This document shows, piece by piece, positions 23,337 to 43,473 of a DNA stretch of 44,778 nt. Made by a program: the position numbers and the translations under genes. Position 1 is the first letter of the stretch, and the number at the start of each line of letters is the position of its first letter. The stretch spans positions 1-44,778 of the forward strand of contig JACPSX010000217.1 in assembly GCA_016193065.1 (NCBI GenBank), given 5' to 3'. The notes under the pieces are model-generated. The model was not told the DNA's origin and ran no database searches. It saw only the letters and a program-made list of their open reading frames with translations. The stretch comes from Candidatus Tectimicrobiota bacterium (GTDB taxonomy: Bacteria > JACPSX01).

Positions 23337-23963
23337 CTAGAACTTTGCTAACTCCTTCAACACTTCCTCGTTGCGGACGCCCATCTCGGGATCGTCCACC
23401 ATGGACCGGATGACTCCTTTCCCGTCGATGAGAATATAGGTGTGTCCGGGCGACACCCCGCGGTGCATGGAGGAAGGGAGGTCCAGAGCGCGATAGGCCC
23501 GGGCAACCTTTTTGTCCGTATCGAGCAGGATGGGAATGCCGCGAACTACTTCCGGATCCTGCTTGGCGGCCTTTTCCCAATCCTTTGCCCGGTCCACCGT
23601 CATTGCCAGAACGACAATGCCCTTCTGGCGGAAGCGAGCGTCGCTGGAGAAGGCCTTGATCTGGTCCCAGCAGGCCGGATAACACATGACCCCTTCCGTG
23701 AAGAACAAAACAACCTGCTTCCCTTTCAGGCCAGAGAGCCGATAGGTCTGACCTTGAAAGCTCCGCAAGGTAAAGTCCGGAGCTGAAGAGCCGACCTTGG
23801 GAGCCGCGGCATTTCCTTGGGAGTACCCGGGCCGTGATCCCGAAAACCAAAGGATTCCCGCCAAGATCAGCACTGCCGCACCGACCCCGAGGACAATCCG
23901 TTTCCGCCCCTTGACTGATTTTCTTTTTCTATTTCTCATTACCTCTCCTCTTCTATTTCCCAT
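23337..23963 (-). CDS. Membrane-anchored thioredoxin-fold redoxin (AhpC/TSA-like)
   Basis: A 208-residue protein with a very basic N-terminus, one membrane helix (about residues 22-42) and a periplasmic AhpC/TSA fold. The fold is marked by GSSAPDFTLRSFQGQTYRLSG, the active-site segment FFTEGVMCYPACWDQI (two Cys four apart), VDRAKDWEKAA and GHTYILIDGKGVIR. It is likely a thiol peroxidase or disulfide reductase kept reduced by the CcdA-like protein encoded just upstream. The first ATG overlaps the CcdA stop (TAATG), implying coupled translation. The ribosome site and first codons are tandemly duplicated, so a second start eight codons later (23939) is equally well placed. Confidence 0.85.
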   Translation of the reverse strand: MGNRRGEVMRNRKRKSVKGRKRIVLGVGAAVLILAGILWFSGSRPGYSQGNAAAPKVGSSAPDFTLRSFQGQTYRLSGLKGKQVVLFFTEGVMCYPACWDQIKAFSSDARFRQKGIVVLAMTVDRAKDWEKAAKQDPEVVRGIPILLDTDKKVARAYRALDLPSSMHRGVSPGHTYILIDGKGVIRSMVDDPEMGVRNEEVLKELAKF

Positions 23964-23967
23964 TACC
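23916..23967 (-). repeat. Tandem duplication of ribosome site and start codon
   Basis: On the minus strand the 24-base unit beginning AGGAGAGGTAATG and ending GAAATAGAAG occurs twice in a row with two or so differences. Each copy supplies its own AGGAGAGG ribosome site and ATG. The unit length is a multiple of three, so both starts are in frame. The first copy also contains the TAA stop of the upstream CcdA gene. Confidence 0.85.
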
Positions 23968-24829
23968 TCTCCTCCCGAGTGCGGTCAGGTTTTCTGAAAA
24001 GGCTCCAGAGCACAAAACCGATGAGTCCAGCAAACAGCAACACCCACACAATTTGGGGAACGTCAACAAGCCAGGCCCCGCTCCCTCTCAAGAAGCGCAC
24101 CAGGCTCAGGTTCGCGGCCAACCCCCACGAACTCGTCATGACGAGCTGGTCGGTGACCGTCAGCCAGAGAATGTAAAAACCCATGGCCAGGAAGACTAGA
24201 GCGGTAAGCAAGTAGCCGGCGGGCACGGTGACCCGGAACGATCCCATCCCCCAGGTCACGGTTTTCCTCATCATCCCCATGCGTTTGGAAACCTCAAATC
24301 GGTCCCAGAACCAGGACAGGATGAAAAGAGGAGAAACCATGCCGAGGACGTAAGCAAAGGTGAGTACCCCGCCACCCAGAGGTGTCCCGGCCAGGGCACT
24401 CAGTGTGGCGACGCCGGCAAACACAGGAGCGCAGCAGGCGCTGGCGATCCCCGAAAAAACCCCCAGGAGGAGGATCGTAATCGGGTCATGTCCTTCCAGC
24501 ACCGGGAGGTTCACGTGAACGCTCGGGCTTTTTCCGAACAGCAGCAGCGTTCCCAGGAACACCAGGACGGTTCCTCCAGCGTAAAAGACCGGTGTATGGA
24601 ACCGCCCCAGCCACTGCCCTACCACGGCAGCGCCCAGCCCCACGGGGAGAAACACTACAAGGATCCCGATGAAAAAAATCGCCGTCAGGACCAGAACTTT
24701 GCCGCGCTCCTTGAAAATGGAGCCCCAATAGGCCGGTAGCAAAAATGTGATGCAGCAGGGAGCAAAGAGGGCAACCACGCCGGCCAGGTAAGAAGTGATC
24801 AGAGAACTGCTGAGCAGGACCGAGTCCAT
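23963..24829 (-). CDS. ccdA: CcdA/DsbD-like transmembrane electron-transfer protein
   Basis: A 288-residue membrane protein with about seven helices that should carry reducing equivalents from cytosolic thioredoxin to periplasmic thiol proteins. The two conserved Cys-bearing helices read GVVALFAPCCITFLLPAYWG near residue 18 and FSGIASACCAPVFAGVATL near residue 125. Both carry adjacent cysteines with a Pro nearby, as in the CcdA/DsbD centre. The obvious client is the redoxin whose start overlaps its stop. It lies only three bases after lgt. CcdA supports either cytochrome c maturation or redoxin recycling; context favours the latter. Confidence 0.85.
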   Translation of the reverse strand: MDSVLLSSSLITSYLAGVVALFAPCCITFLLPAYWGSIFKERGKVLVLTAIFFIGILVVFLPVGLGAAVVGQWLGRFHTPVFYAGGTVLVFLGTLLLFGKSPSVHVNLPVLEGHDPITILLLGVFSGIASACCAPVFAGVATLSALAGTPLGGGVLTFAYVLGMVSPLFILSWFWDRFEVSKRMGMMRKTVTWGMGSFRVTVPAGYLLTALVFLAMGFYILWLTVTDQLVMTSSWGLAANLSLVRFLRGSGAWLVDVPQIVWVLLFAGLIGFVLWSLFRKPDRTREER

Positions 24830-24832
24830 TGC

Positions 24833-25609
24833 TCAAGCGTTCCGCACATGGCGGAACCGTAGGAGGAACCCGATGAGGAGGACTCCCACAAGGGCCAGAG
24901 CGCTAAGAGTCATGGCCGTGGACAGGCTGTATGGACCCAGGCGGTAGGTGAGCTGGTCCCCCCGGAAGGACTCAATCACAAAGCGCCCCAGAGAATAGAG
25001 GCCCGCGTACCACAGGAACAGGATCCCCTCTGCGCGCGGCTTTCGGCGCAGAAGACGCAACAGGGCAAACACAAGAAGATCCCAGGCAAACTCATAGAGC
25101 TGGGTCGGGTGTAGGGAGATCCCTTTGGGCGCCAGAGAATCCGGATCCGTAAAGGTAATCGCCCAGGGCAGGTCGGTGGGCTTGCCATAGGCATCCCCGT
25201 TGAGAAGGCAACCAATACGGCCGATCGCCTGGCCAATGATGAGAGCCGGCGCCAGTGTATCGGCCAGTTTCCAGAAGGAAAGACCGCGACGACGACAAAA
25301 CCATAACGCGCCTACAAGGCCGCCGAGGATGGCTCCTTGAATGGCCAGCCCCCCGTGCCAGACTGCAATGATCTCGAAAGGGTCGCGCAGGAAAGAGGCA
25401 AAGTCCGAGAAGAGAACATAATCAATCCGGGCCCCGGCCAGACCGAAGAGAAGCCCCCAGGAGAGAAAATCATCCATGAGAGCGGGGGATAGCTTGTTTC
25501 GTTTCGACTCGCTTCGGGCCAGCAGCCAGGCCACGAGCACCGCCGTCGCCACCAGGGCTCCATAGGACCGGATCGTGATTGGACCGACCTGAAACAGAAT
25601 CGGAAACAT
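24833..25609 (-). CDS. lgt: Prolipoprotein diacylglyceryl transferase
   Basis: A 258-residue inner-membrane enzyme that adds diacylglycerol from phosphatidylglycerol to the lipobox Cys of prelipoproteins. It has seven helices, the essential segment WHGGLAIQGAILGGLVGA, and the Lgt signature GQAIGRIGCLLNGDAYGKPT, followed by LHPTQLYEFAWDLL and FRGDQLTYRLGPYS. ATG 25609 (MFPILFQVGPITIRSYG) has an AAGGAGAG ribosome site; the longer frame to 25699 is not family-like. It is the first gene of the leftward set lgt-ccdA-redoxin, divergent from the iron-uptake operon. Confidence 0.93.
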   Translation of the reverse strand: MFPILFQVGPITIRSYGALVATAVLVAWLLARSESKRNKLSPALMDDFLSWGLLFGLAGARIDYVLFSDFASFLRDPFEIIAVWHGGLAIQGAILGGLVGALWFCRRRGLSFWKLADTLAPALIIGQAIGRIGCLLNGDAYGKPTDLPWAITFTDPDSLAPKGISLHPTQLYEFAWDLLVFALLRLLRRKPRAEGILFLWYAGLYSLGRFVIESFRGDQLTYRLGPYSLSTAMTLSALALVGVLLIGFLLRFRHVRNA

Positions 25610-25932
25610 TCGTTGCCTCTCCTTATGGAGTTTCCTTGAAAAGCACAATCCGTGCCACCCCACTCCTCTCCGGAACCACGGAAAATCTCCCAGAATCATA
25701 AGGCGTTACAGGCGAGCCTCCAGACAGGAAGGCCTCTCTTTCAGCCAAATTGACAAATTGGCAAAGGAAACCTTCTTGTACCTAAGTCAGCCGACTTTTT
25801 GGCAAGGACTTCACAGGAGCTGCCAGAAGAACAGCCGTTTTGAAATTCCTTGCCGAGACCCCGTGGTAAGCAAGATGGGCTAGACATCTAGGACAAATGT
25901 CTCATTGTGAAAACTTCAATCGATTATTACAT
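25610..25932. other. Divergent promoter region between lgt and the iron operon (lgt side)
   Basis: There is no gene in this stretch. It contains a dyad AGACAT-N9-ATGTCT (25882-25887 and 25897-25902) that could be an operator. An 18-base segment at 25752-25769 recurs with one mismatch at 35183-35200. Promoter hexamers cannot be assigned with confidence. Confidence 0.4.
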
Positions 25933-25947
25933 TGATTCTCAGTTTCA
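25933..25947 (+). promoter_or_regulatory. Possible Fur box upstream of the iron permease gene
   Basis: TGATTCT-C-AGTTTCA matches 10 of 14 positions of the 7-1-7 Fur consensus. It sits 130 bases upstream of the FTR1 start, directly before the structured leader. Given the iron-uptake function downstream, Fur control is a reasonable guess, but the match is imperfect and the site untested. Confidence 0.35.
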
Positions 25948-25949
25948 CT

Positions 25950-26025
25950 AAAAGCGGTCTTTCTTCGCCGGGCAGGCTCCGAAGTTGCCGGCGCAAGAGA
26001 CCGAGGAAAGATCCGAACCGCTTTT
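25950..26025 (+). promoter_or_regulatory. Strongly structured 5' leader of the iron operon
   Basis: A 76-base element. The outer stem AAAAGCGGT (25950-25958) pairs with ACCGCTTTT (26017-26025), and CTTTC pairs with GAAAG just inside. An internal hairpin is closed by CGCCGG (25966-25971) and CCGGCG (25988-25993). It ends 51 bases before the FTR1 ATG. The TTTT at the foot of the outer stem gives it a terminator-like appearance. It could be an attenuator or metal-responsive leader; I know of no named riboswitch that fits. Confidence 0.5.
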
Positions 26026-26076
26026 CTGTAATTTGACCGGAGGTGTCGTGGAAACCTCACGGTTTCGAGGAGTGGG

Positions 26077-27384
26077 ATGATGAATCTCCTGTTTCACATC
26101 ACGGAAGCCCTGGTGGTCACCCTTCGAGAAGGGATTGAAGCAGCCCTGGTCATCGCGGTCCTGCTGGCCTACTTGCGGAAAACCGGCAAGGTCACTCTGA
26201 ACCGCTCCGTCTACCTGGGGCTGGGGGCCGCTCTAGCGGCCAGCATCCTGGCCGCGATTGCCGTCCGGCGTTACGGGATCGACCCGGAAAACGAACTTCT
26301 CGAAGGGATATTGATGTTCGTGGCGGCTCTCCTGGTAGGCTCTCTGGCCGCCTGGATGTGGCACGCCGGGCGGAACTTGCGACAACGGATGGAAGACCAA
26401 CTCGACTCTCTCGTGGCCTCCTCAGGGACTGGCCACTCCAGAGCCGCGCTTGGCATCTTTGTCTTTTCCTTTCTCATGGTGTTTCGGGAAGGAGTAGAGA
26501 CGGTCCTCTTTCTCGCGGCTCTCTCCGGCACCGTCGGCAGCAACCCACTTTACAACGCTCTGGGGGGAAGTCTGGGGCTCCTCTTGGCGGCAGGATTTGG
26601 CTTCCTCTTTATCCGGGGCAGCCTCCGGGTGAACCTGAGGCGGTTCTTTGGGATTACCGGGGTCGTGCTCATGATCCTGGTCGCGAAGCTCATGGCCAGC
26701 GGCTTCCATGAATTCTTCGAGGTGGGCCTGATCCCCAGCTCCCCGTTCTGGCTGCGGGTGATCGGCTTTTTCACCCGCGAGAGCAGCTCCGTCATCATCC
26801 TGATCCTCCTGATTGCCCTGCCGGGCTTGGCCCTCGCCTGGGAAGGGTGGCGTATGGCCCCGGTTGAAATGGAACCAAATGCAACCGGCGCCGAGCGTCG
26901 CAAACATCTCGCCGGGTTTCAGCGCAACCGGCGCTGGACCTTGAGCGCCGGAGCCGGAGCCCTGGCCCTGAGTTTAATCCTGGGGTCGTTTGCTGCAGTC
27001 CAGGCCACCCGCGGTTATGATCCGGAGCCCACTCGGGTAACAGCGGTGAACGGCGCCATCGCGCTGGCCTTCCCTCAGGACGACAAGATCCACAAGCACA
27101 TGGTGGATGTGGACGGAGTTCCCGTCCGCTTCTTTCTGCTGAGGCGGAAAGACGGCACCCTGGCCAGCGCCTTTGACGTTTGCTACATCTGCCCGCCCAA
27201 GGGATACATGCAGGACGGAGACCAGCTCATCTGCCGGAACTGCGACGCGCCCATTAACGTGGACACGGTGGGCCTCACCGGGGGATGCAATCCGATCCCT
27301 CTCAAGGTCGAAACGACCGGATCCCAGGTGCAGATTGCCCTGGCGGATCTGGCCACAGCCAAAGACCGCTTTGCCGGAAAGTAG
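26077..27384 (+). CDS. FTR1-family iron permease fused to DUF2318 domain
   Basis: A 435-residue inner-membrane protein. Residues 1-260 form the FTR1 iron permease with seven helices and the two iron-binding motifs REGIE (17-21) and REGVE (137-141). After another helix (about 290-310), residues 320-430 form a periplasmic DUF2318 domain with cysteines 369, 372, 386, 389 and 404 (CYICPPKGYMQDGDQLICRN then CDAPINVDTVGLTGGCNPIP). In Campylobacter-type systems the two modules are separate genes (iron permease and the Cj1660-like protein). Fusion implies they act on the same iron path. It is first of four tightly packed plus-strand genes. Confidence 0.92.
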   Translation: MMNLLFHITEALVVTLREGIEAALVIAVLLAYLRKTGKVTLNRSVYLGLGAALAASILAAIAVRRYGIDPENELLEGILMFVAALLVGSLAAWMWHAGRNLRQRMEDQLDSLVASSGTGHSRAALGIFVFSFLMVFREGVETVLFLAALSGTVGSNPLYNALGGSLGLLLAAGFGFLFIRGSLRVNLRRFFGITGVVLMILVAKLMASGFHEFFEVGLIPSSPFWLRVIGFFTRESSSVIILILLIALPGLALAWEGWRMAPVEMEPNATGAERRKHLAGFQRNRRWTLSAGAGALALSLILGSFAAVQATRGYDPEPTRVTAVNGAIALAFPQDDKIHKHMVDVDGVPVRFFLLRRKDGTLASAFDVCYICPPKGYMQDGDQLICRNCDAPINVDTVGLTGGCNPIPLKVETTGSQVQIALADLATAKDRFAGK

Positions 27385-27388
27385 CCCG

Positions 27389-28720
27389 ATGCTCTTTCGT
27401 CTCCTGCGGAAATCCCTGCGCGGCCGCAAAGGCCGCATTGCGCTGACCACTCTCGCCGTGGCGGTTGCTGCCAGCGCGGTGTCGGTACTCCTCAATGTGA
27501 CCCTGGACATCGGCGAGAAGGTCGGCCGGGAACTGCGCGCCTATGGTGCCAACATCATCGTGTCTCCCAAGCAGGATGCCCTGGAGGTGGAAATCGGCGG
27601 CTTGCGCTACGCCGCGGCTGCCAAGGCGGCTTATCTAAACGAATCGGACCTACCGAAGCTGAAAACGATCTTCTGGGCCCACAATATCGTGGCCTTTGCT
27701 CCATTTCTTTCGGGGACCGTGGAAATCGGGAATCGCCCGGTCCTGCTGGTGGGGACCTGGTTTGACCGGGAGATTCCTCTGCCTGGCGGAATCCGCAAGT
27801 TCCGCTTTGGCACGGGCAACGTCCGGGAAGTGAAGTCCGAGGAGACCCGCTTTCGAACCGGCATCAAAGCCGTCGCTCCCTGGTGGCAACTACAGGGCCG
27901 GTGGATCGCCAATCCCACCGGTGAGGCCCTCGTGGGGTCAGCCCTGGCCAGGCGCCTCCAGGTAAATCCTGGAGACCTTCTTCCCATGAAAGTGGGCGGC
28001 CTGCAACAGTCAATGCGAATTGCCGGAATCGTTCGCACCGGTGGTGCAGAAGAGGATCAGGTGATCGTGGAACTGGCCGCCGCACAGACCCTCCTGGGTC
28101 TTCCCGGCAAGGTCGATCGAGTGCAGGTCAGCGCACTGGTCAAGCCGGACGATGCTCTGGCCTTACGGGGAAAGCGCAACCCCCAGGGCCTTCCCCCCGA
28201 GGAGTTCGAGCGCTGGTACTGCTCTCCTTACATCGACCCGATCCTTTTTCAGATCGAGGAAGCGCTCCCCGCCGCCCGGGCCAAAGCTCTGCGGCAGGTG
28301 GCAGAAGCCGAAGGAGCCTTTGTGCGCCGGATGAACCTCACGATGCTTCTCGTCACGGGTCTGGCCATGGTGATGACAGGATTCGGAGTCGCCGCCACCA
28401 TGACCACCACCGTCCTCGAGCGCCGCAGTGAAATTGGCCTCATGAAGGCTCTGGGCGCGGATCGCAGTCAGATTGCCCGCCAGTTCATCCTGGAAGCGAG
28501 CTTGTGCGGAATCGCTGGAGGAATCATCGGCGCTGCAGCCGGCGCATGGCTCTCCCGGCTCATCGGCACCCAGGTCTTCCAGGTACCGATCAACCCGACC
28601 CTGATCACTCTCCCCTTCACACTGGCTCTGGCGATGGCCGTGGCGCTTCTGGGAGCCGCCGCGCCCGCTGCACAGGCTGCCCGCCTCGATCCGGTTCACA
28701 CGCTACGGGAGACTCTCTGA
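27389..28720 (+). CDS. FtsX/MacB-like ABC permease 1 of iron operon
   Basis: A 443-residue membrane subunit. An N-terminal helix (about 18-40) precedes a large periplasmic domain (about 45-310), and three C-terminal helices follow with the FtsX signature VLERRSEIGLMKALGADRSQIARQF. It starts two bases after the FTR1-DUF2318 stop. The periplasmic domain contains a segment (AVAPWWQLQGRWI) also present in the next gene product, so the two permeases are paralogs forming a heterodimer. Equivalent pairs (Cj1661/Cj1662) are encoded next to FTR1/P19 systems. A mechanotransmission role powered by the ATPase, rather than channel transport, is likely for this family. Confidence 0.88.
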   Translation: MLFRLLRKSLRGRKGRIALTTLAVAVAASAVSVLLNVTLDIGEKVGRELRAYGANIIVSPKQDALEVEIGGLRYAAAAKAAYLNESDLPKLKTIFWAHNIVAFAPFLSGTVEIGNRPVLLVGTWFDREIPLPGGIRKFRFGTGNVREVKSEETRFRTGIKAVAPWWQLQGRWIANPTGEALVGSALARRLQVNPGDLLPMKVGGLQQSMRIAGIVRTGGAEEDQVIVELAAAQTLLGLPGKVDRVQVSALVKPDDALALRGKRNPQGLPPEEFERWYCSPYIDPILFQIEEALPAARAKALRQVAEAEGAFVRRMNLTMLLVTGLAMVMTGFGVAATMTTTVLERRSEIGLMKALGADRSQIARQFILEASLCGIAGGIIGAAAGAWLSRLIGTQVFQVPINPTLITLPFTLALAMAVALLGAAAPAAQAARLDPVHTLRETL

Positions 28721-29874
28721 TGGGAACGGAATTTTTCCTGCGGCTGCTGTGCAAATCCCTTCAAAACCGCGCGCAGAAGCTCCTGACCGCCGCACTGGCC
28801 GTGGCCCTGGGCGTATCTCTGGCCGCAGCAGCACTGACGATCTCCCTCGGGATGCGAACGCAAATGAGCCAATCGCTGCGGGCTTACGGCGCCAACATCC
28901 TTCTGGTTCCCCCGCTGGAGCGGGCGCAGAAAGGTGCAACCGAACTGCTCGGCACCATGCCCGGAGAGATCGTCAACCGCTTGCATGACCTGGGCTCGAA
29001 GTTGGGCCTTCTAGGGTACGCGCCGCTGCTCTACACGGTAGCCGAAGTACGGTCTCAACGGGTCGCTGTAGCCGGCATCTGGCCGGATGCCATGCGCCAG
29101 TTGAGCCCCTGGTGGCAACTGGAGGGCAAAGGGATCCCAGATCGGGCGGACACCGGGCAGAGCCTTGTCGGCATTTCGGTCGCCCGCAAGCTCGGCTTGC
29201 GCATTGGTGACACACTGACAGTAACCGCGCAGGGACGCTCGCGCACCTTTCGGGTGGCGGGAATTCTCACTAGCGGCGGATCGGAAGATGAGCAGATCTT
29301 TGTGACGCTGCGAGCGGCCCAGGAGCTGGCCAATCGGCACGGCCGGGTGAGCTTAATTCAGGTCAGTGTACTGACCGGCCAGAACCGCATTGAGAACGTC
29401 ATCCGTAACCTGGAGGCGAATCTGCCCGAGGTGATTGTGCAATCCCGACTCCAGGTGGTGCAGGCTGAAGAGCGCATCCTCTCCCGCCTCTCTTTCCTGC
29501 TCGGGCTCATTGCCGCGCTTCTAATCGGCACTTCGGCTCTGGGCGTAGCGGCCAGCATGATCACCAGCGTCCTGGAGCGGACCCGGGAGATCGGTCTCAT
29601 GAAAGCCTTGGGCGCGGGGAGTGGCCGGGTCGCCGCACTTTTCCTGGCCGAGGCAGCCTCCATTGGTCTGTTCGGCGGTGGAGCCGGCTACGCTCTGGGA
29701 GTTGGTCTGGCGCAGGTCATTGCCCGGTCTGTCTTCCAGGGAGGGGTGCCGATCACGGGAACTCCGGCTGTGGCTTCCATCCTCCTTGGCATCGGCATTG
29801 CAACAGCGGCCAGCCTGGCTCCTGTCCGCCGGGCCGTCCGCATTCAACCAGCCATCGTCTTGCGAGGTGAATAG
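28720..29874 (+). CDS. FtsX/MacB-like ABC permease 2 of iron operon
   Basis: A 384-residue paralog of the preceding protein, smaller in the periplasmic domain. It shares QSLRAYGANILLVPP after the first helix, LSPWWQLEGKGIPD, and the C-terminal VLERTREIGLMKALGAGSGRVAALFLAEAA with three helices. Start and preceding stop overlap (TGATG), indicating coupled translation. Together with permease 1 and the ATPase it would form a MacB/LolCDE-type complex associated with periplasmic iron handling. Substrate is inferred from context. Confidence 0.88.
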   Translation: MGTEFFLRLLCKSLQNRAQKLLTAALAVALGVSLAAAALTISLGMRTQMSQSLRAYGANILLVPPLERAQKGATELLGTMPGEIVNRLHDLGSKLGLLGYAPLLYTVAEVRSQRVAVAGIWPDAMRQLSPWWQLEGKGIPDRADTGQSLVGISVARKLGLRIGDTLTVTAQGRSRTFRVAGILTSGGSEDEQIFVTLRAAQELANRHGRVSLIQVSVLTGQNRIENVIRNLEANLPEVIVQSRLQVVQAEERILSRLSFLLGLIAALLIGTSALGVAASMITSVLERTREIGLMKALGAGSGRVAALFLAEAASIGLFGGGAGYALGVGLAQVIARSVFQGGVPITGTPAVASILLGIGIATAASLAPVRRAVRIQPAIVLRGE

Positions 29875-29876
29875 AA

Positions 29877-30599
29877 ATGGAATCCCCGACAGTCCGCATG
29901 GAAGACGTGAGCAAAACCTATCCGGGGCCGGTGGTGGCTCTGGACCGGTTGAACATCGAGATCGCAGAGGGCGAATGGGTGGCCATCATGGGACCCTCCG
30001 GCTCGGGAAAGAGTACCTTGCTCAACCTCCTGGGGTGCCTGGACCGGCCCACCTCGGGCCGCATCGAGATTGATGGCGTGCACGTAACCCCCCTCGGGGA
30101 AAAGCAACTCACCACACTTCGACGGGAGAAGGTCGGTCTCATTTTCCAGCAGTTCCACCTGGTCCCGTATCTTTCTGCACTGGAGAATGTCATGCTCGCC
30201 CAGTATTTTCACAGCATGGCGGACGAGACGGAAGCCTGTCGGGCCCTGGAGGAAGTCGGCCTGGAGGACCGTCTTGATCACCTCCCCTCCCAGCTCTCCG
30301 GAGGCGAGCAGCAGCGGGTGTGCATTGCCCGCGCCTTGATCAACTCTCCCAAGATTCTCCTGGCGGACGAACCCACGGGGAACCTGGACGAAGGCAACGA
30401 GCAGATTGTCCTCGATATCTTCCAGCGCCTGCACACGGAGGGCCATACGATTATTATGGTTACCCATGACTCCAATGTGGGGACACTGGCGGACCGGATC
30501 GTCTTACTTGAGCACGGCCGACTCGTGACTTCACAGGTTCCGACCCGGGATCCCTTCACCGCACCAGTTCAGCCAGGAGTACCTCTTACGCCTTCTTAA
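29877..30599 (+). CDS. MacB/LolD-like ABC ATPase of iron operon
   Basis: A 240-residue cytosolic ATPase energising the two preceding permeases. It has Walker A GPSGSGKST, the Q-loop FQQFHLVPYLSA, signature LSGGEQQR, Walker B ILLADEP with NLDEGN, and the switch His in MVTHD. ATG 29877 follows the permease stop by two bases. The last residues after GRLVTSQ form a Pro/Thr-rich tail. A 29-base stretch near its end (30476-30504) is exactly repeated at 35230-35258. The stop lies only six bases from the convergent stop of the molybdoenzyme gene. Confidence 0.92.
   Translation: MESPTVRMEDVSKTYPGPVVALDRLNIEIAEGEWVAIMGPSGSGKSTLLNLLGCLDRPTSGRIEIDGVHVTPLGEKQLTTLRREKVGLIFQQFHLVPYLSALENVMLAQYFHSMADETEACRALEEVGLEDRLDHLPSQLSGGEQQRVCIARALINSPKILLADEPTGNLDEGNEQIVLDIFQRLHTEGHTIIMVTHDSNVGTLADRIVLLEHGRLVTSQVPTRDPFTAPVQPGVPLTPS
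30476..30504 (+). repeat. 29-base direct repeat (copy 1) inside the ATPase gene
   Basis: The segment beginning TGTGGGGACACTGGCGGACC is identical over 29 bases at 30476-30504 and 35230-35258, in the same orientation. Here it encodes VGTLADRIV of the ABC ATPase. Together the copies bracket the molybdoenzyme gene pair. Confidence 0.9.
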
Positions 30600-30605
30600 T
30601 CCTCC

Positions 30606-33600
30606 TCAGACACGGACCAGTCTTACCCGAGTATCGTAGAAAACGGCGCTGGCTCCCACAGGGTCCGACAGACAGGTGTTTGGTAGCACCGGGTCTGTCC
30701 GCATGGCAGCGTTGGCGTGCAACCCCTTGGAACGCCGCTGGTCCCCTTTGATGGTTCGCCGGTTAATCACTACATCTTGACTCCCGTACGCCCAGTGGCC
30801 ATGGCCCAGGGAGAAGCTGACCACCCCCGGACGAATCCCCTCGATGACCTTCAGAATCCCGACCATGGGCTTCTTCCGACCGTGCTTGAGGTCCCAGATT
30901 CCCTCTGGATTCGTGGCCGAGACCACTTTCACCCGATCGCCGTCCTTGAACCCTAGCCGCTTGGCGTCCTGGGTGTTGATCAGGAACTCCCCCCCGGGCA
31001 GGAAGTTCAGGAGCCAATAGTTGCTGATAGTCCGGCTCTTGGTGTGGAACACCACCCGCTTGGTGAGTAGATGGAGGTCATACCCGATATCCTCGACCGG
31101 CCGGTCCAGGAAGTCCCGGGGCCCGGGGGTGTAATTGGCAATTCCCAGGTAGGGCTTGCCCGTCATGGCGCTCTTCGTCGTGGCGGTCTTCTCCTGATAG
31201 AGATTGATGAGGGCGCCGTACTTGTTTCTCAACTGCTCTCCATCGTACGCCCTGGCAAAGTCCTCGAACCGGCCGCCCCGGCTGAGGACGGTGATCACCC
31301 TCCGCCACCATTTATCCCCGACGACCCAAGCCCAGCGGTCGGCATCAAAAACCGTCTTCGGCAGGTGCCGCCTGGACTTCAAGAAGAGTTCCACCTCCCG
31401 GTCATCCGCATCCGGCACAGCGTCGGAGCCATCGGCTTTCTCCCCGGCGGCCACGTTGGCCACCATCCGGAGATAGAAATCCTCGGGGCGCAGGAAGTCC
31501 TGACCCGGCCCGAAGCCGTCCTTGCCGAACCCCGGCAGACCCAGCTTCTCCGCGATTCCCAGGAGCAGCGCCTCCAGTGTGCAAGGCATCTCCTGGCCGA
31601 AGACCCGGACCGTTTCCGTCAGGGGCGCGATGACCGGCTGGCGGATCGGCTGGACTTTCCAGGGAATCGATGGATGGGTCCCTGCGAACTCCCACCGCTC
31701 CAGGTAGGTGCAGTCGGGGAAAATATAGTCGGCGTACATGGAGGTCTCGCCGATGATGATGTCGTTGGCCACCACCAGTGGGACCTTGGCGGGGTCCGCC
31801 AGGACCTCGATGTTCGTGTGGCCAGCCGGCAGGGAGTACACCGGCGTCCCCATGTAGAGGAGGAGTGCCTTGATCGGATACGGGTACGCGTCTCCCGCGG
31901 ACGGGACGATCTCCTGGTAAATATCGCTGGCCAGGGGATACCACTGACGCTTGGCCGGGTAGCCGGAAAAGAGGGTGGTGTCTTCGTACTTGTCGCCATC
32001 CCGGATGATGCTGACGCCGAAGGCCGTTGTCTTCCCTGGATGCAGCTTCCCCAGGGGGAATGGCTGCCCTGCCTTGCCGCCCCCGGCATCGTATGCTGCC
32101 CCACCAACCATGCCCCCTTTCCAGTCAAAGCTCCCGATGAGCAGGGGGAGAGCAAACCAGGCCGTGCAGTTATATAGGCCGTTGGTGTGCTGTGAGACGC
32201 CGCGGTGAATGTCCACAGCCGCTTTCTTCCCATGGCTTGTGAACTCCCGGGCAATCTCCTCCAGGTCGGAAGCCTTGAGCCCGGCCAGCTCCGCCCACTC
32301 CTCCACCGTCCGCGCCGCGGCTTGCTCATAGAGGAGCTGGAAGGCGCTCTTCACCCGAATGCCGGCCACTTCCGCGCTCACCTGGAGGTCGCCCTCTACG
32401 GGGTTCTTGGCATCGTTCGGGTCAAAGGGGACCAGACGGCCGCCCAGCGAGATCACGAAGGGGTCGAACTCATAGGTCCCCTTGCCGTCGCTGGTGGGCC
32501 GCCTCTCCTTGGGAGCGATCCCAGCCTCTGAGGCCCGCAGGAATTTCCCTGGAGTGCCGTCCTTTTCCATCTTCACCAGCCAGGCGGCGTTGCACGACGT
32601 GGGCTCCTTGTCGGCAGCGGCAGCGGCCTTGTTCGCGTTTCGCAAATACCGCTCATCGTAGCGCCGGTTGTCGATGATCCAGCGGATGAGGGCCAAAGCT
32701 GCCGCTGCGTCGGTCCCGGGCTGGTTGGGGAGCCACTTCCAGGCCATGGTGCCGGACGTCCGGTTCAAGACCGGATCGATGACAACGTACTTCAATCGCC
32801 CCGAGGACACACCTTCGGTGATCCGCTGAGCGCGCAGTGTCGGGCCCTGGCTGGCCTCGAAGGGGTTCACGCCGACAAAGATGATAAACTCGGCGGACTG
32901 CTGGTCCGCCTGCCAGAAAAACTTCTTGCCCCCGGTCCACTTGCCATCCAGATACTGCTCGCTCATGGCTTTGCCGGTGAAGTACAGGGACCCCTGGCAG
33001 ACAGTGGTGTGGCCATGGGCATTCCGGGAGCCGAAGGCATCCACGGCGAAGCGGCGGATCAGGTCGCCCCGCCCGCCTTTGAGCCGCCCCCACACGAAAG
33101 CGAACTGGTTGTTCTTGGGGCCCAGGTCAGGATGGTTCGGATCGATGAGGAGGTGGAGCTGCTCCCGGTGCTTCGCCTTGAATTCCTCGACCGCCTGTCT
33201 TTTTTCCGCCGGGGTCTTCTTGGCCATGATGGCTTTGACCTCACCGGTCAGGGCGTTGGCCAGCTTGGGGTCGCGCAGTGCCCAGATTTCCTTCAGCCCC
33301 CCGACCTTCCGGTTCTCCTCGCCCGGAACGTGCCGGAAGAGGGTGCCGCCCTCGACAATCTCGGCAATCGCCTGCTGGAAGGGAATTGTCATCCACTTGT
33401 TCTCGCCCCGTTTCCCGGCCCGCTTGAGGACTTTGACGATCCGGTAGGGATCGTAGGCCGCCTGGATCCCGGCCTGACCCTTGGGGCAGAGGCGGGCATC
33501 TACAGCCGCTGTCTCAAAAGGGGAGGTGCGATACGGGACGTGAGGATCCAGGTTCCAGGGGCTGAAAGGGTTGCCGTCCACCTTCACCAACACCCCGCCC

Positions 33601-33851
33601 CGGATCTTGGCCTTGATCCCACACTGAGTGTTGCACTGCTGGCAGACCGAGTAGAGGATGTTCTCGGGGGTGGCACGATCGTACTCGCCGGTCGGGAGTT
33701 CCCGAGCCTCGGCGGCACGGACTAAACCTGCCAGCTCCCCCAGCTTGGCATGGCTGGCAAGAAGGGCAGCACCCCCCAAGAGTGCCCCGCCGGTGAGGAT
33801 GGAGCGCCTTGTAAGTCCATCCCCGTCGTGTTCGGGAAGCTTCTTCCCCAT
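30606..33851 (-). CDS. Molybdopterin oxidoreductase catalytic subunit, tetrathionate-reductase-like
   Basis: A 1081-residue exported DMSO-reductase-family enzyme. A Tat signal (TRRSILTGG, hydrophobic to about residue 46) is followed by a [4Fe-4S] motif with Cys70, Cys73, Cys77 and Cys122, and a likely Mo ligand Cys285 in HTTVCQGSLYFTGKA. The dinucleotide-binding domain at the C-terminus (about 960-1060) has YWLLNFLPGGEFLINTQDAK and LGHGHWAYGSQD. Overall length and the opening CQQCNTQCGIKAKIRGG resemble TtrA rather than ArrA or PsrA. True substrate is unknown. It is paired with an iron-sulfur subunit 12 bases upstream; no membrane anchor gene follows. Confidence 0.85.
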   Translation of the reverse strand: MGKKLPEHDGDGLTRRSILTGGALLGGAALLASHAKLGELAGLVRAAEARELPTGEYDRATPENILYSVCQQCNTQCGIKAKIRGGVLVKVDGNPFSPWNLDPHVPYRTSPFETAAVDARLCPKGQAGIQAAYDPYRIVKVLKRAGKRGENKWMTIPFQQAIAEIVEGGTLFRHVPGEENRKVGGLKEIWALRDPKLANALTGEVKAIMAKKTPAEKRQAVEEFKAKHREQLHLLIDPNHPDLGPKNNQFAFVWGRLKGGRGDLIRRFAVDAFGSRNAHGHTTVCQGSLYFTGKAMSEQYLDGKWTGGKKFFWQADQQSAEFIIFVGVNPFEASQGPTLRAQRITEGVSSGRLKYVVIDPVLNRTSGTMAWKWLPNQPGTDAAAALALIRWIIDNRRYDERYLRNANKAAAAADKEPTSCNAAWLVKMEKDGTPGKFLRASEAGIAPKERRPTSDGKGTYEFDPFVISLGGRLVPFDPNDAKNPVEGDLQVSAEVAGIRVKSAFQLLYEQAAARTVEEWAELAGLKASDLEEIAREFTSHGKKAAVDIHRGVSQHTNGLYNCTAWFALPLLIGSFDWKGGMVGGAAYDAGGGKAGQPFPLGKLHPGKTTAFGVSIIRDGDKYEDTTLFSGYPAKRQWYPLASDIYQEIVPSAGDAYPYPIKALLLYMGTPVYSLPAGHTNIEVLADPAKVPLVVANDIIIGETSMYADYIFPDCTYLERWEFAGTHPSIPWKVQPIRQPVIAPLTETVRVFGQEMPCTLEALLLGIAEKLGLPGFGKDGFGPGQDFLRPEDFYLRMVANVAAGEKADGSDAVPDADDREVELFLKSRRHLPKTVFDADRWAWVVGDKWWRRVITVLSRGGRFEDFARAYDGEQLRNKYGALINLYQEKTATTKSAMTGKPYLGIANYTPGPRDFLDRPVEDIGYDLHLLTKRVVFHTKSRTISNYWLLNFLPGGEFLINTQDAKRLGFKDGDRVKVVSATNPEGIWDLKHGRKKPMVGILKVIEGIRPGVVSFSLGHGHWAYGSQDVVINRRTIKGDQRRSKGLHANAAMRTDPVLPNTCLSDPVGASAVFYDTRVRLVRV

Positions 33852-33863
33852 GATTGCTCTCCT

Positions 33864-34802
33864 TTAGGAATGAAACCCAGCAATGAACTGCGGATCGTCG
33901 GTCACGTAATAGACGCGTGGCTCGGTACCCCGGTTTTCCCGGACCCGCAGGATCTTGTTCTTGTTCTTTTCCTTGAGTTCGTTCACCAGGCTCTGGGCGT
34001 CGTTCTTATCCCCGAAGTAGAGCGCCCGGCCGATGCAGGTGCTGACACACACGGGGAGGAGGCCGGCGTTGAGACGGTGCAGGCAGAAGTGGCACTTTCG
34101 CCCGCCGCCCGCAGGGGGGCCGCTGGCCTTCTTTGGCTCTCGTACCCAGTGGTGGCCGTAGTCGTGGCCGACCGTGCGCTCGTAGGCCTGGAGGGCCGGG
34201 GTGCTCTGGGTGTAAAAGCTCCCGTCGTCGTAGTAAAGGGCCTTGTACGGGCAGGCCTTCGCTGCGGCCCGGAAGGCTGCTCGCCCCCGGAACTTGGCAT
34301 AATTGATGGCCACGATTCCATCGGGCCGCTTGATGATCGAGCCAGGCGCGATTGCATTTGCCGCCGGCAGACAGGGAGGCTTATCACACTGCATGCACTG
34401 GGTGGGCATCGGGTATTTCTTCACTTCAGGGTAGCTGCCGAACTCGATCTCCGGAACGCTGCGGTACGTGACCCCTGGGGGGAGCACGTTCTCCGCCACG
34501 CACGCTACGACACAGGCCCGGCAGCCCACGCACCTGCGGCCGTCCACCACCATGATCCAGCCGCGCTGCTCCACAGGCTTCTGCAGAGCCCTGCGGATCT
34601 CCGCTTGCATTCGCAAAAGGGAATCTGCAGTTCCGTCCATTGCTGGCAGCGGTGCCGGTGGGACCGTCGAGGCCCCTGCGGCTCGATAGCCAGCAGTCTT
34701 GGCGCTAGTAAGGAGCGCCACCCCCACCGCAGTCCCCAGCTTGATTAGATTCCTGCGGTTCATGGTGGACTCTGAAACTCCATCGCCTCGTTTTTTCCCC
34801 AT
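33864..34802 (-). CDS. Iron-sulfur electron-transfer subunit (TtrB-like) lacking one cluster
   Basis: A 312-residue partner of the molybdoenzyme. A Tat-like signal NRRNLIKLGTAVGVALL precedes a ferredoxin domain. Motif 1 (CVGCRACVVAC) and motif 4 (CHFC, then CVSTC) are complete. Motif 2 keeps CMQCDKPPC but has LPAANA where a final CP is usual. Motif 3 keeps only the last Cys (KACPYKA), with the other three replaced in KFRGRAAFRAAA. Twelve Cys remain instead of sixteen, matching loss of exactly one cluster. ATG 34802 has a GGAGGGAAACC ribosome site. Confidence 0.85.
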   Translation of the reverse strand: MGKKRGDGVSESTMNRRNLIKLGTAVGVALLTSAKTAGYRAAGASTVPPAPLPAMDGTADSLLRMQAEIRRALQKPVEQRGWIMVVDGRRCVGCRACVVACVAENVLPPGVTYRSVPEIEFGSYPEVKKYPMPTQCMQCDKPPCLPAANAIAPGSIIKRPDGIVAINYAKFRGRAAFRAAAKACPYKALYYDDGSFYTQSTPALQAYERTVGHDYGHHWVREPKKASGPPAGGGRKCHFCLHRLNAGLLPVCVSTCIGRALYFGDKNDAQSLVNELKEKNKNKILRVRENRGTEPRVYYVTDDPQFIAGFHS

Positions 34803-35229
34803 GGTTTCCCTCCTCTGGCTGATTCCCAACCGTGCCCAGATTTCACACCACCGAGCCCTTTCCTTGTGTTGCATTATGCAATACCCATACCTTTCAACTT
34901 GCATTGCTCATGCCACACCCCGCGTGGATGGGTCCACTCCAAAAGGCGGGAACCCAGAGGTCGGAACGGGACCAATGGAAAGGTTCAAGTCGGGCAAGTC
35001 GTACCGGCCCTGAAAAAAAAGAGCCTCTATCTGGCTACCCACGAGCACGAGCCGGCAGAAGGAAGGAATGGAGTCATTGGAAACCATCGAGGCAAGGGAT
35101 CAAGGCTCCTTTTTTTGTGGGAAAACACCCACCCGGTCCCCTCGGATGGGTGAAAATACTCAGTAAAAAAGACCGCCCTTGCGACAATTTGGCAAAGGAA
35201 GCTTTTCCGACGCAGAACCCGTGGACTTT
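34803..35229. other. Gap upstream of the molybdoenzyme genes
   Basis: There is no gene here. It holds the palindrome at 34869-34881 and a long-spaced inverted pair AAAAAAAAGAGCCT (35013-35026) and AGGCTCCTTTTTTT (35103-35116) with one mismatch, which could be a hairpin or miniature element. A segment at 35183-35200 resembles 25752-25769 in the promoter region of the iron operon. Confidence 0.5.
34869..34881. promoter_or_regulatory. 13-base palindrome upstream of the TtrB-like gene
   Basis: TTGCATTATGCAA is a perfect palindrome around a central base, 67 bases upstream of the TtrB-like start codon. The position suits an operator for the two-gene molybdoenzyme operon, but no regulator is encoded nearby. 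Confidence 0.35.
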
Positions 35230-40911: not shown

Positions 40912-43473
40912 TTACGCGGCGCGCGGCCTCCAGCGCTTGAGCCGGTTGGCGTTCGTGATCACGGTCACCGAGCTGAACGACATGGCGATGGCGGCCAGAA
41001 GGGGGGACAGCAAGATGCTGAAGAACGGGTAGAGCACACCCAGGGCGATAGGCAGTCCCAGGGCGTTATAGATGAAGGCCCCGAACAGATTCTGGTAAAC
41101 GTTGCGCATGGTGGCCCGGCTGATCTGGATGGCGGTCACCACACCGCGGAGACTGCCTTTGATCAGCGTGATGTCCGAGGCGGCGATCGCCACGTCCGTC
41201 CCCGTTCCAATGGCGAAGCCCACGTCGGCCTGGGCCAGAGCAGGGGCGTCATTGATCCCGTCCCCTACCATGGCCACTTGTTTCCCCTCGAGCTGGAGCT
41301 TCTGAACATTGAAGGCCTTGTCCTGAGGCAACACCTCGGCAAGCACGCGCTCGATTCCCACCTGCCGGGCGATGGCCCCCGCGGTCCGCTCGTTATCCCC
41401 CGTGATCATCACCACCTCCAGGCCCATGGTCTTCAGGGCCTGAATCGCCGACTTCGAATCCTCCTTCACGGTGTCGGCCACGGCCACGATGCCGGCAATT
41501 TCCCCGTCGACGGCCACGTACATGGGGGTCTTTCCTTCATCGGCAAGTTGCACCGACCTGGCTTCAAGACTATCCAACGAGATCTTCCGGTCGCGCATGA
41601 GCTTCAGGTTCCCGAGGAGCAGCTCCCGCCCCTCCACCATCGCCTCGATGCCGTGGCCGGGGATCGCACGAAAGGCCTGCGGGTCCAGGAGCGTGAGGCC
41701 CCGAGAGGTTGCACCCTCGACGATGGCAGAGGCCAGCGGGTGCTCGGAAGACTTCTCGACGCTTCCCGCCAAGCGCAGGAGCTCCTCCTCCCGGAAGCGT
41801 CCGACCGCGACCGCATCGGTCAACACGGGCTTCCCGTAAGTGATGGTGCCGGTCTTGTCCAGGATGATCGTCTGGAGCTTCTGGGCAGTCTGGAGCGCCT
41901 CGCCGCCCCGGATCAGGATCCCGTTGAGGGCCCCGAGGCCAACCCCCGTGGTCAGCGACATAGGGGTGGCCATGCCGAGGGCGCAAGGGCAGGCAATGAT
42001 CAGCGTGGTTACAGCCACGATGAGGGCATAGACAACCCGGGGCTCGGGACCGAACGTGTACCAGATCATGAACCCGAGGATCGCCAGGATCGCGACCGAC
42101 GGAGTGAAATAGCCTGAGACGACGTCCACGATCCTCTGGACGGGAACCTTGGAGCCCTGGGCGTCTTTGACCATGCGGACGATGTTGGCCAGTGCCGTGT
42201 CCTTGCCGACCTTCGTCGCCCGGAACCTGAAAGCGCCGGTCCTGTTGATGGTGGCGCCGATCACCTCGTCACCCACCTGCTTCTCTACCGGGAGCGACTC
42301 CCCGGTCACCATGGATTCGTCCACGGCTGACGCTCCTTCAATAACCTCACCGTCCACAGGGATCTTCTCACCCGGCCGAACGACAACGACATCGCCCACC
42401 AGCACCTCCTCAACCGGAATGTCCACTTCACTTCCGTCGCGGATCACGCGCGCCCTCCTGGCCTGGAGCCCGACCAGCTTTTTGATGGCGTCCGAAGTCC
42501 GGCCCTTGGCCTTGAGCTCCATGGCCAAGCCCAGGACGACCAGGGCCGTGACCACCACCGTCACGTCGTAGTAAACCTCAGTGAACTCGGAGGCCGGAAA
42601 GATCTGCGGGAAGAGAAGCGCAATGGTCGAGTAGATCCAGGCGATTCCGGTTCCCATGGCAATTAGAGTGTGCATGTTGGCCGAGCGGTGCCGGAACGCT
42701 TGCCACGCGCCCGTGAAGAACTGGTTGCCGCTGTAAAGAAGGACCGCCAAGGAGGCCACACCCATCCCCACCCAGATATACCGGAGCTGGGGGCTCCCGC
42801 GCGGGAACCAGTCTCGGAGCAGAGGAAAGAGCCACGGGTAGCTGAAGATCATCGTGAAGATTCCGACGGCGGCCCCGAACCACCACTTGTGCATCAGGTC
42901 CCGGTACTCACGGTCGCGGGCTTGGGCTTCCTTGTCAACCTCCTCCGGGCCGCCCGGCGGCGGGGCCTCGGCGACCTCGTAGCCGGCAGCTCCGACCGCC
43001 GCCTTTACCGAGGAGAGGTCGGCCGCGCCTGGCAGATACTCGACCTCGGCCTCCTCCGTCCCGACATTGACGCTGGCCTTCAGCACACCGGGAGTCACGA
43101 GCAAGGCATTCTCGATCTTGGTGACACAGGAAGCACAGGTAATGCCTCGGATGCCGAAGCGGATCTTGGCCGCTCCCACCCGGTAGCCTGCCGCTTTGAT
43201 GGCCTCGTGGAGCCCGGCGATGGTCGCCTGCTCCGGGTCGTATTCTACGAAGGCCCGGCCTCCGGCCAGGTTGACCGTCGCACCCCTCACTCCCGGAACT
43301 GCCCGGAGCGTTTGCTCCACGGCCTGAACACACCGGGCGCAGGTCAGACCGGACACAGGTAGCTCGATGCGCCGACTCCCCTTGGCCTCGCTGCTGACAC
43401 CTGTCGTCGCCGACGGAGCACTTCTCGCTCCCCCAACCTTCCTGCCGACGGTCTCAAGAGCCTTCGATATCAC
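40912..43473 (-). CDS. copA: Copper-translocating P-type ATPase (two HMA domains)
   Basis: An 853-residue P1B-1 ATPase exporting Cu(I) across the inner membrane. Two N-terminal HMA domains carry CARC (Cys45, Cys48) and CASC (Cys113, Cys116). Eight membrane helices begin at about residue 195. The ion site is CPC (495-497), the phosphorylated Asp is Asp539 in DKTGT, and [10 protein letters not shown] and TGES complete the catalytic set. Start is GTG 43473 behind a GGAGG site. The neighbouring cupredoxin gene supports copper as substrate. Confidence 0.95.

Follow-up and report, generated by a model that had tools for sequence, protein, structure and literature searches.

The closest described relative of the locus analysed here is the fetMP-fetABCDEF cluster of Campylobacter jejuni, which encodes an FTR1 permease (FetM), a P19 protein (FetP), the permeases FetB and FetC, the ATPase FetD, the thioredoxins FetE and FetF, and FetA, a protein with eight membrane helices, a DUF2318 domain and a YHS domain (PMC10783030, PMC6083913). 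Loss of fetA, fetB, fetC or fetD impairs growth of C. jejuni in low iron, and the function and biochemistry of FetA are termed unknown (PMC10783030). The role of FetA, and the reason for a MacB-like ATP-binding cassette (ABC) complex beside an iron permease, lend interest to a contig of 44,778 nucleotides from a Candidatus Tectimicrobiota bacterium (JACPSX010000217.1; hereafter the window). Positions 26077-30599 of the window are fairly likely to encode a member of a fused class of Fet iron importers that lacks P19, composed of an FTR1-DUF2318 protein and FetBCD and working in the manner proposed below.

The sequence establishes the gene content and order of this locus and the conservation of its motifs (Table 1). 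The fusion, two FtsX/MacB-like permeases and an ATPase lie consecutively on the plus strand with near-zero gaps, and a CcdA-like protein and a membrane redoxin are encoded divergently, all as reported in a first-pass annotation of this DNA; lgt, which it did not mention, sits between the CcdA gene and the FTR1 permease on the minus strand. Among the components of a Fet system, we found an FTR1 permease bearing RExxE motifs, a DUF2318 FetA in the form of a fusion, FetB, FetC and FetD, and we found neither P19/FetP nor thioredoxins of the FetE/FetF kind beside the cluster. The absence of P19 noted earlier was confirmed by a search with PF10634, which found none in the locus or in its metagenome-assembled genome (MAG), which is 86% complete. 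These results support the earlier view that the locus serves iron import and is a relative of the Campylobacter FTR1/P19 cluster, without P19 and with DUF2318 fused to the permease. The description of the system as incompletely described applies to the biochemistry of FetA but not to the parent Fet system, which gene-deletion work has dissected (PMC10783030).

The fusion is a recurrent class. A search with an alignment of three fusions against about 85,000 genomes returned at least 80 loci with near full-length fusions, and those listed were 35-69% identical to the window protein. Among the matches listed, the hosts included Methylomirabilota, Deltaproteobacteria, Chloroflexi, Actinobacteria, Acidobacteria, a Myxococcales MAG and Methanoperedens archaea. 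Wherever these loci extended far enough, fetB came next in 67/67, followed by fetC in 61/61 and fetD in 53/53. The arrangement of fusion and fetBCD tail is found again in dozens of unrelated genomes and so is not due to chance. P19 was absent from 32 of 35 other fusion genomes, and the three matches comprised one strong match on another contig and two weak ones. In the Methanoperedens loci, a gene for a DtxR-type iron-dependent repressor with a FeoA domain directly follows fetD; together with the homology to C. jejuni, this points to iron as the presumed substrate. In two Methanoperedens loci (L031:11299-13745 and L035:10140-12577), genes apparently for a phosphonate-type ABC importer separate the fusion from fetB, and three deltaproteobacterial loci (L009, L012, L015) have a conserved protein of ~680-730 amino acids (HGDHGDAAPPEGG...) upstream of the fusion. 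The MAG itself represents a sparsely sampled lineage, and the genome collection scanned contains no other member of its phylum.

The AlphaFold2 model of the fusion, built from 44 aligned fusions (predicted local distance difference test 90; predicted template modelling score 0.82), runs from the eighth membrane helix into a beta domain. When the DUF2318 model was compared with solved structures by VIA-align, Rieske ferredoxins and Rieske proteins recurred at Z 7-8.6 and a root-mean-square deviation (rmsd) of 2.4-3.9 Å over 89-106 residues, including 1vm9 (Z 8.6, rmsd 3.0 Å, 98 residues) and 1rie (Z 7.4, rmsd 2.4 Å, 89 residues). Foldseek likewise ranked Rieske oxygenases high, with a probability of up to 0.98 but an expect value (E) of about 0.1. 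The whole fusion gave nothing below E 0.001 in Foldseek, and the matches to its membrane part were a mixture of helical transporters, from which we draw no conclusion. An hhalign comparison of a DUF2318 profile (112 domains) with 30 Rieske-motif sequences of the same genomes scored 29.9, against at most 16.0 for shuffles, and placed the first and third cysteines in register; the first-to-third ligand distance is 17-20 in DUF2318 (16 in one case) versus 16-19 in Rieske proteins. DUF2318 thus resembles Rieske proteins in predicted fold, in the order and spacing of ligand positions and in a proline-containing third loop, but its knuckles are all-cysteine rather than Cys2His2. As it carries CxxC-x13-CxxC, with CxxC in place of both CxH and CxxH, it falls outside the Rieske proteins as defined by their ligands. 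We therefore describe DUF2318 as a domain predicted to adopt a Rieske-type fold in which four cysteines take the place of the Cys2His2 ligands of Rieske proteins; it may hold a metal centre related to theirs. Given the predicted fold and the conserved cysteines, a redox role is plausible. The roles proposed for FetA/DUF2318 in the two Fet papers are Fer2/Fer4-like or disulfide-based (PMC10783030, PMC6083913). Within the collection of papers searched, none linked DUF2318 with Rieske proteins, and a sequence search of solved structures returned none for the fusion or for E. coli FetA.

The predicted structure of FetB resembles the type VII ABC transporters LolCDE, MacB and HrtBA, with which it shares a MacB-like periplasmic domain and an FtsX domain. 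These transporters are machines that move outer domains, not solute importers. Unlike them, FetB is associated with DUF2318 and FTR1 and has a conserved, presumably extracytoplasmic cysteine. This cysteine, in the motif W-[YS]-C-[ST]-P/A, was present in all 68 FetB sequences and was the sole cysteine of the protein in 42 of them; FetB of an E. coli plasmid shares it (WYC), and no conserved cysteine was found in FetC.

The survey of 386 genomes detected DUF2318 above the family cut-off in 25, and the loci fell into three layouts. The split layout has separate FTR1, P19, FetA, FetB, FetC and FetD (L141-143 and the E. coli plasmid, L114), and in Campylobacterota loci P19, FetA and FetB were visible within 3.3 kb. 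Rhodospirillum rubrum, too, reportedly has a split cluster (PMC6083913). The fused layout has FTR1-DUF2318, FetB, FetC and FetD without P19 (the window, L145-147, L149 and the listed loci, at least 80). In the standalone layout, a short DUF2318 protein accompanies one permease and one ATPase, with no iron permease in range (L130-135, L137-140); in all ten such loci the single permease carries CxxCP just before the equivalent helix, the exact column alignment being gapped. One standalone DUF2318 locus adjoins genes for heavy-metal-associated (HMA) domain proteins (L003). Comparison of the three layouts indicates that P19 goes with the split form and that DUF2318 and the ABC machine are common to all. 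The standalone loci without an iron permease suggest that DUF2318 and the ABC machine form the core of the system.

The origin of FetA was assessed by hhalign of 13 FetA membrane parts, from which the linker and DUF2318 had been removed, against the FTR1 domain of the fusions. The profiles aligned at 52.4 with a probability of 92% over ~200 columns, compared with at most 26.0 for 99 block-shuffled FTR1 profiles, 19.1 for the reversed profile and less than 20 for 27 other locus profiles. Trimming the last FTR1 helices removed most of the signal, the probability falling to 21%. FetA lacks RExxE, and as the Pfam FTR1 model gave no score on any FetA, profile-profile alignment is the sole basis of this link. 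The membrane domain of FetA is therefore probably a decayed FTR1; in view of the Pfam result and of the signal lost on trimming, we rate this as likely but not proven. If so, the fusion combines FetM and FetA in one protein.

We propose the following working model. FTR1 would use its RExxE sites to carry iron across the membrane, while DUF2318, carried outside on the eighth membrane helix, would form a small Rieske-fold domain near the permease mouth. Its two CxxC knuckles may hold a metal centre (2Fe-2S, rubredoxin-like iron, or zinc) that alters the redox state of iron or passes iron on. FetBCD would act not as a classical importer but, as in LolCDE and MacB, by converting ATP hydrolysis into movement of its outer domains. 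The invariant FetB cysteine, predicted to face the same side, could dock with DUF2318, perhaps at C404, and through this docking ATP use might reset or load the DUF2318 centre. The electron donor would be encoded outside the locus, and lgt-ccdA-redoxin would be a separate cassette. The full combination is tentative, possible but short of probable: an all-cysteine Rieske-fold redox domain in the permease, driven by a type VII ABC machine via the FetB cysteine; FetA of Campylobacter and the E. coli plasmid as decayed FTR1 pseudo-permeases that bring DUF2318 to FetM; and a DUF2318-ABC module that also occurs without an iron permease.

Several points weigh against the fused Fet reading. We know of no experiment on any fused system. 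The available deletion data come from the split C. jejuni system, which has P19 and thioredoxins (PMC10783030). Rieske matches at Z 7-8.6 fall in the range where the tool warns of a mere common arrangement, the hhalign probability for DUF2318 and Rieske sequences is just 65%, and the DUF2318 cysteines could bind zinc or merely form disulfides. That the FetB cysteine touches DUF2318 is a proposal, a search near 26077 that allowed 3 mismatches found no Fur box, and the completeness of the MAG stands at 86%.

One alternative casts DUF2318 as a structural zinc domain, or as an iron-binding chaperone that replaces P19 and feeds FTR1 without electron transfer. CxxC(G) knuckles are a typical feature of zinc sites, and P19 is missing where DUF2318 is fused; however, the split systems contain both proteins, DUF2318 cannot then be a simple stand-in for P19, and we consider this explanation unlikely. 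It is also improbable that DUF2318 is a metal-free thiol-disulfide domain in which the CxxC pairs undergo disulfide exchange with the FetB cysteine and with thioredoxins. The odd fifth DUF2318 cysteine together with the FetB cysteine, the CxxC of the standalone-type permease, the importance of FetE/FetF in C. jejuni and the disulfides proposed for FetA cysteines (PMC10783030) are consistent with such exchange, but most fusion loci have no thioredoxin nearby and the CxxC knuckles of DUF2318 occupy Rieske metal-ligand positions.

The first-pass annotation had proposed that electrons flow from CcdA through the redoxin to DUF2318, which would reduce iron at the permease, and had named a lack of co-conservation as grounds for refutation. 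CcdA-type proteins export reductant, and the divergent genes share one intergenic region with the iron locus. The window protein is CcdA-like, with a DsbD_TM match below threshold (1.8e-3), and lgt, its gene and the redoxin gene are apparently co-transcribed. Upstream DNA of at least 2 kb was available in 71 of the 80 listed fusion loci and of at least 4 kb in 59. No match to the window CcdA was found near any of these 80 fusions, even at E 0.01, and the redoxin had a single match, about 7 kb past the fusion with an E of 0.001. Sixteen other fusion genomes gave no CcdA match at 1e-10 and only generic redoxins, in three of them, and a Pfam scan of 97 genes neighbouring fusions found the redoxin family only once. 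Elsewhere the pair travels with copper and other heavy-metal genes: in the plasmid collection a CcdA match lay beside the redoxin match in 18/19 records with a redoxin match, the five plasmid neighbourhoods examined had the order ccdA, peroxiredoxin-family gene, and glutaredoxin or thioredoxin, and several of the five lay near cueR, CopC, DUF2933 or heavy-metal ATPases. The window operon resembles such ccdA-peroxiredoxin-glutaredoxin(-lgt) cassettes on Rubrobacter, Burkholderia, Streptomyces and Rhodococcus plasmids, particularly the Rubrobacter ccdA-redoxin-glutaredoxin-lgt cassette, which also runs into lgt, but it shows no glutaredoxin and adjoins an iron locus. Although the C. jejuni cluster includes FetE/FetF (PMC10783030), these are of the CxxC thioredoxin type, whereas the window redoxin is a CxxxC peroxiredoxin-type protein and not conserved, and the proposed electron route is very unlikely. 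For lack of co-conservation we reject CcdA and the redoxin as part of the iron system. Given this result and its own travel on plasmids, lgt-ccdA-redoxin appears to be an independent cassette that lies beside the iron locus by chance, and a physiological link in this one organism is conceivable. Two near-identical 24-base tandem copies occupy 23927-23974, at the ccdA/redoxin junction in the redoxin start region, and a heavy-metal P-type ATPase with two HMA domains is encoded at 40912-43473, ~16 kb from the cassette.

Table 1. Features of the iron-import locus and its divergent neighbours in the window.
Feature	Position	Strand	Evidence
FTR1-DUF2318 fusion (FetM and FetA in one protein), 435 amino acids	26077..27384	+	PF03239 4.9e-40; PF10080 (DUF2318/FtrD-like) 5e-28
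First RExxE iron-binding motif, REGIE	26125..26139	+	invariant or almost in 83 fusions
Second RExxE motif, REGVE	26485..26499	+	R, E, G, E each 1.00 in 83 fusions
DUF2318 domain, extracytoplasmic, predicted Rieske-type fold	27046..27372	+	AlphaFold2 model; structural and profile matches to Rieske
DUF2318 first CxxC, C369 and C372 (Rieske: CxH)	27181..27192	+	invariant in 83 fusions; codons checked
DUF2318 second CxxC, C386 and C389 (Rieske: CxxH)	27232..27243	+	invariant in 83 fusions
DUF2318 fifth cysteine, C404, GGCNPIP loop	27286..27288	+	invariant in 83 fusions
FetB-type permease (type VII ABC)	27389..28720	+	MacB_PCD and FtsX domains; Foldseek best matches LolCDE, MacB, HrtBA
Invariant FetB cysteine, W-[YS]-C-[ST]-P-Y	28220..28222	+	68/68 FetB sequences; codon checked
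FetC-type permease, without conserved cysteine	28720..29874	+	MacB_PCD and FtsX domains
FetD ABC ATPase	29877..30599	+	PF00005
Shared divergent intergenic region	25700..26076	.	
lgt, prolipoprotein diacylglyceryl transferase; neighbour, outside the iron system	24833..25699	-	TIGR00544 above cut-off
CcdA-like thiol transporter; neighbour, not co-conserved	23963..24829	-	33-39% identity to annotated CcdA proteins
Membrane redoxin, peroxiredoxin family, C94-x3-C98; neighbour, not co-conserved	23337..23963	-	AhpC-TSA 3.9e-20

No sigma-70 promoter, terminator or Rfam element was found in the shared intergenic region and its surroundings. Convergent after fetD, positions 30606-34904 encode a 1081-amino-acid molybdopterin oxidoreductase and an Fe-S subunit, a pair nearest to TtrA/TtrB of tetrathionate reductase but far under the curated cut-offs.

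The window system would be a compact, widespread relative of the known Campylobacter iron uptake system, in which the iron channel bears a probable metal-redox domain of its own and acts alongside a pump that transmits force. As the fused form shows, the FetA domain has its physical place on the permease; the specific residues singled out by the comparison are the four DUF2318 ligand cysteines, C404 and one FetB cysteine. The comparison further reveals a compact class of iron importers in little-studied lineages, among them Acidobacteria, Methylomirabilota and Methanoperedens archaea. The E. coli plasmid FetMP-FetABCD cluster (NZ_CP030112.1) has homologues of all parts of the window system, including the FetB cysteine, but differs in its split FetM and FetA, its P19 and its genes for a TlpA-like protein and a disulfide oxidoreductase. 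Compared with C. jejuni fetMP-fetABCDEF, the window has the FTR1 permease, the DUF2318 domain, FetB, FetC and FetD in the same order, but joins FetM and FetA in one protein without a YHS domain, lacks P19 and adjacent FetE/FetF thioredoxins, and has a TtrA-like gene after fetD.

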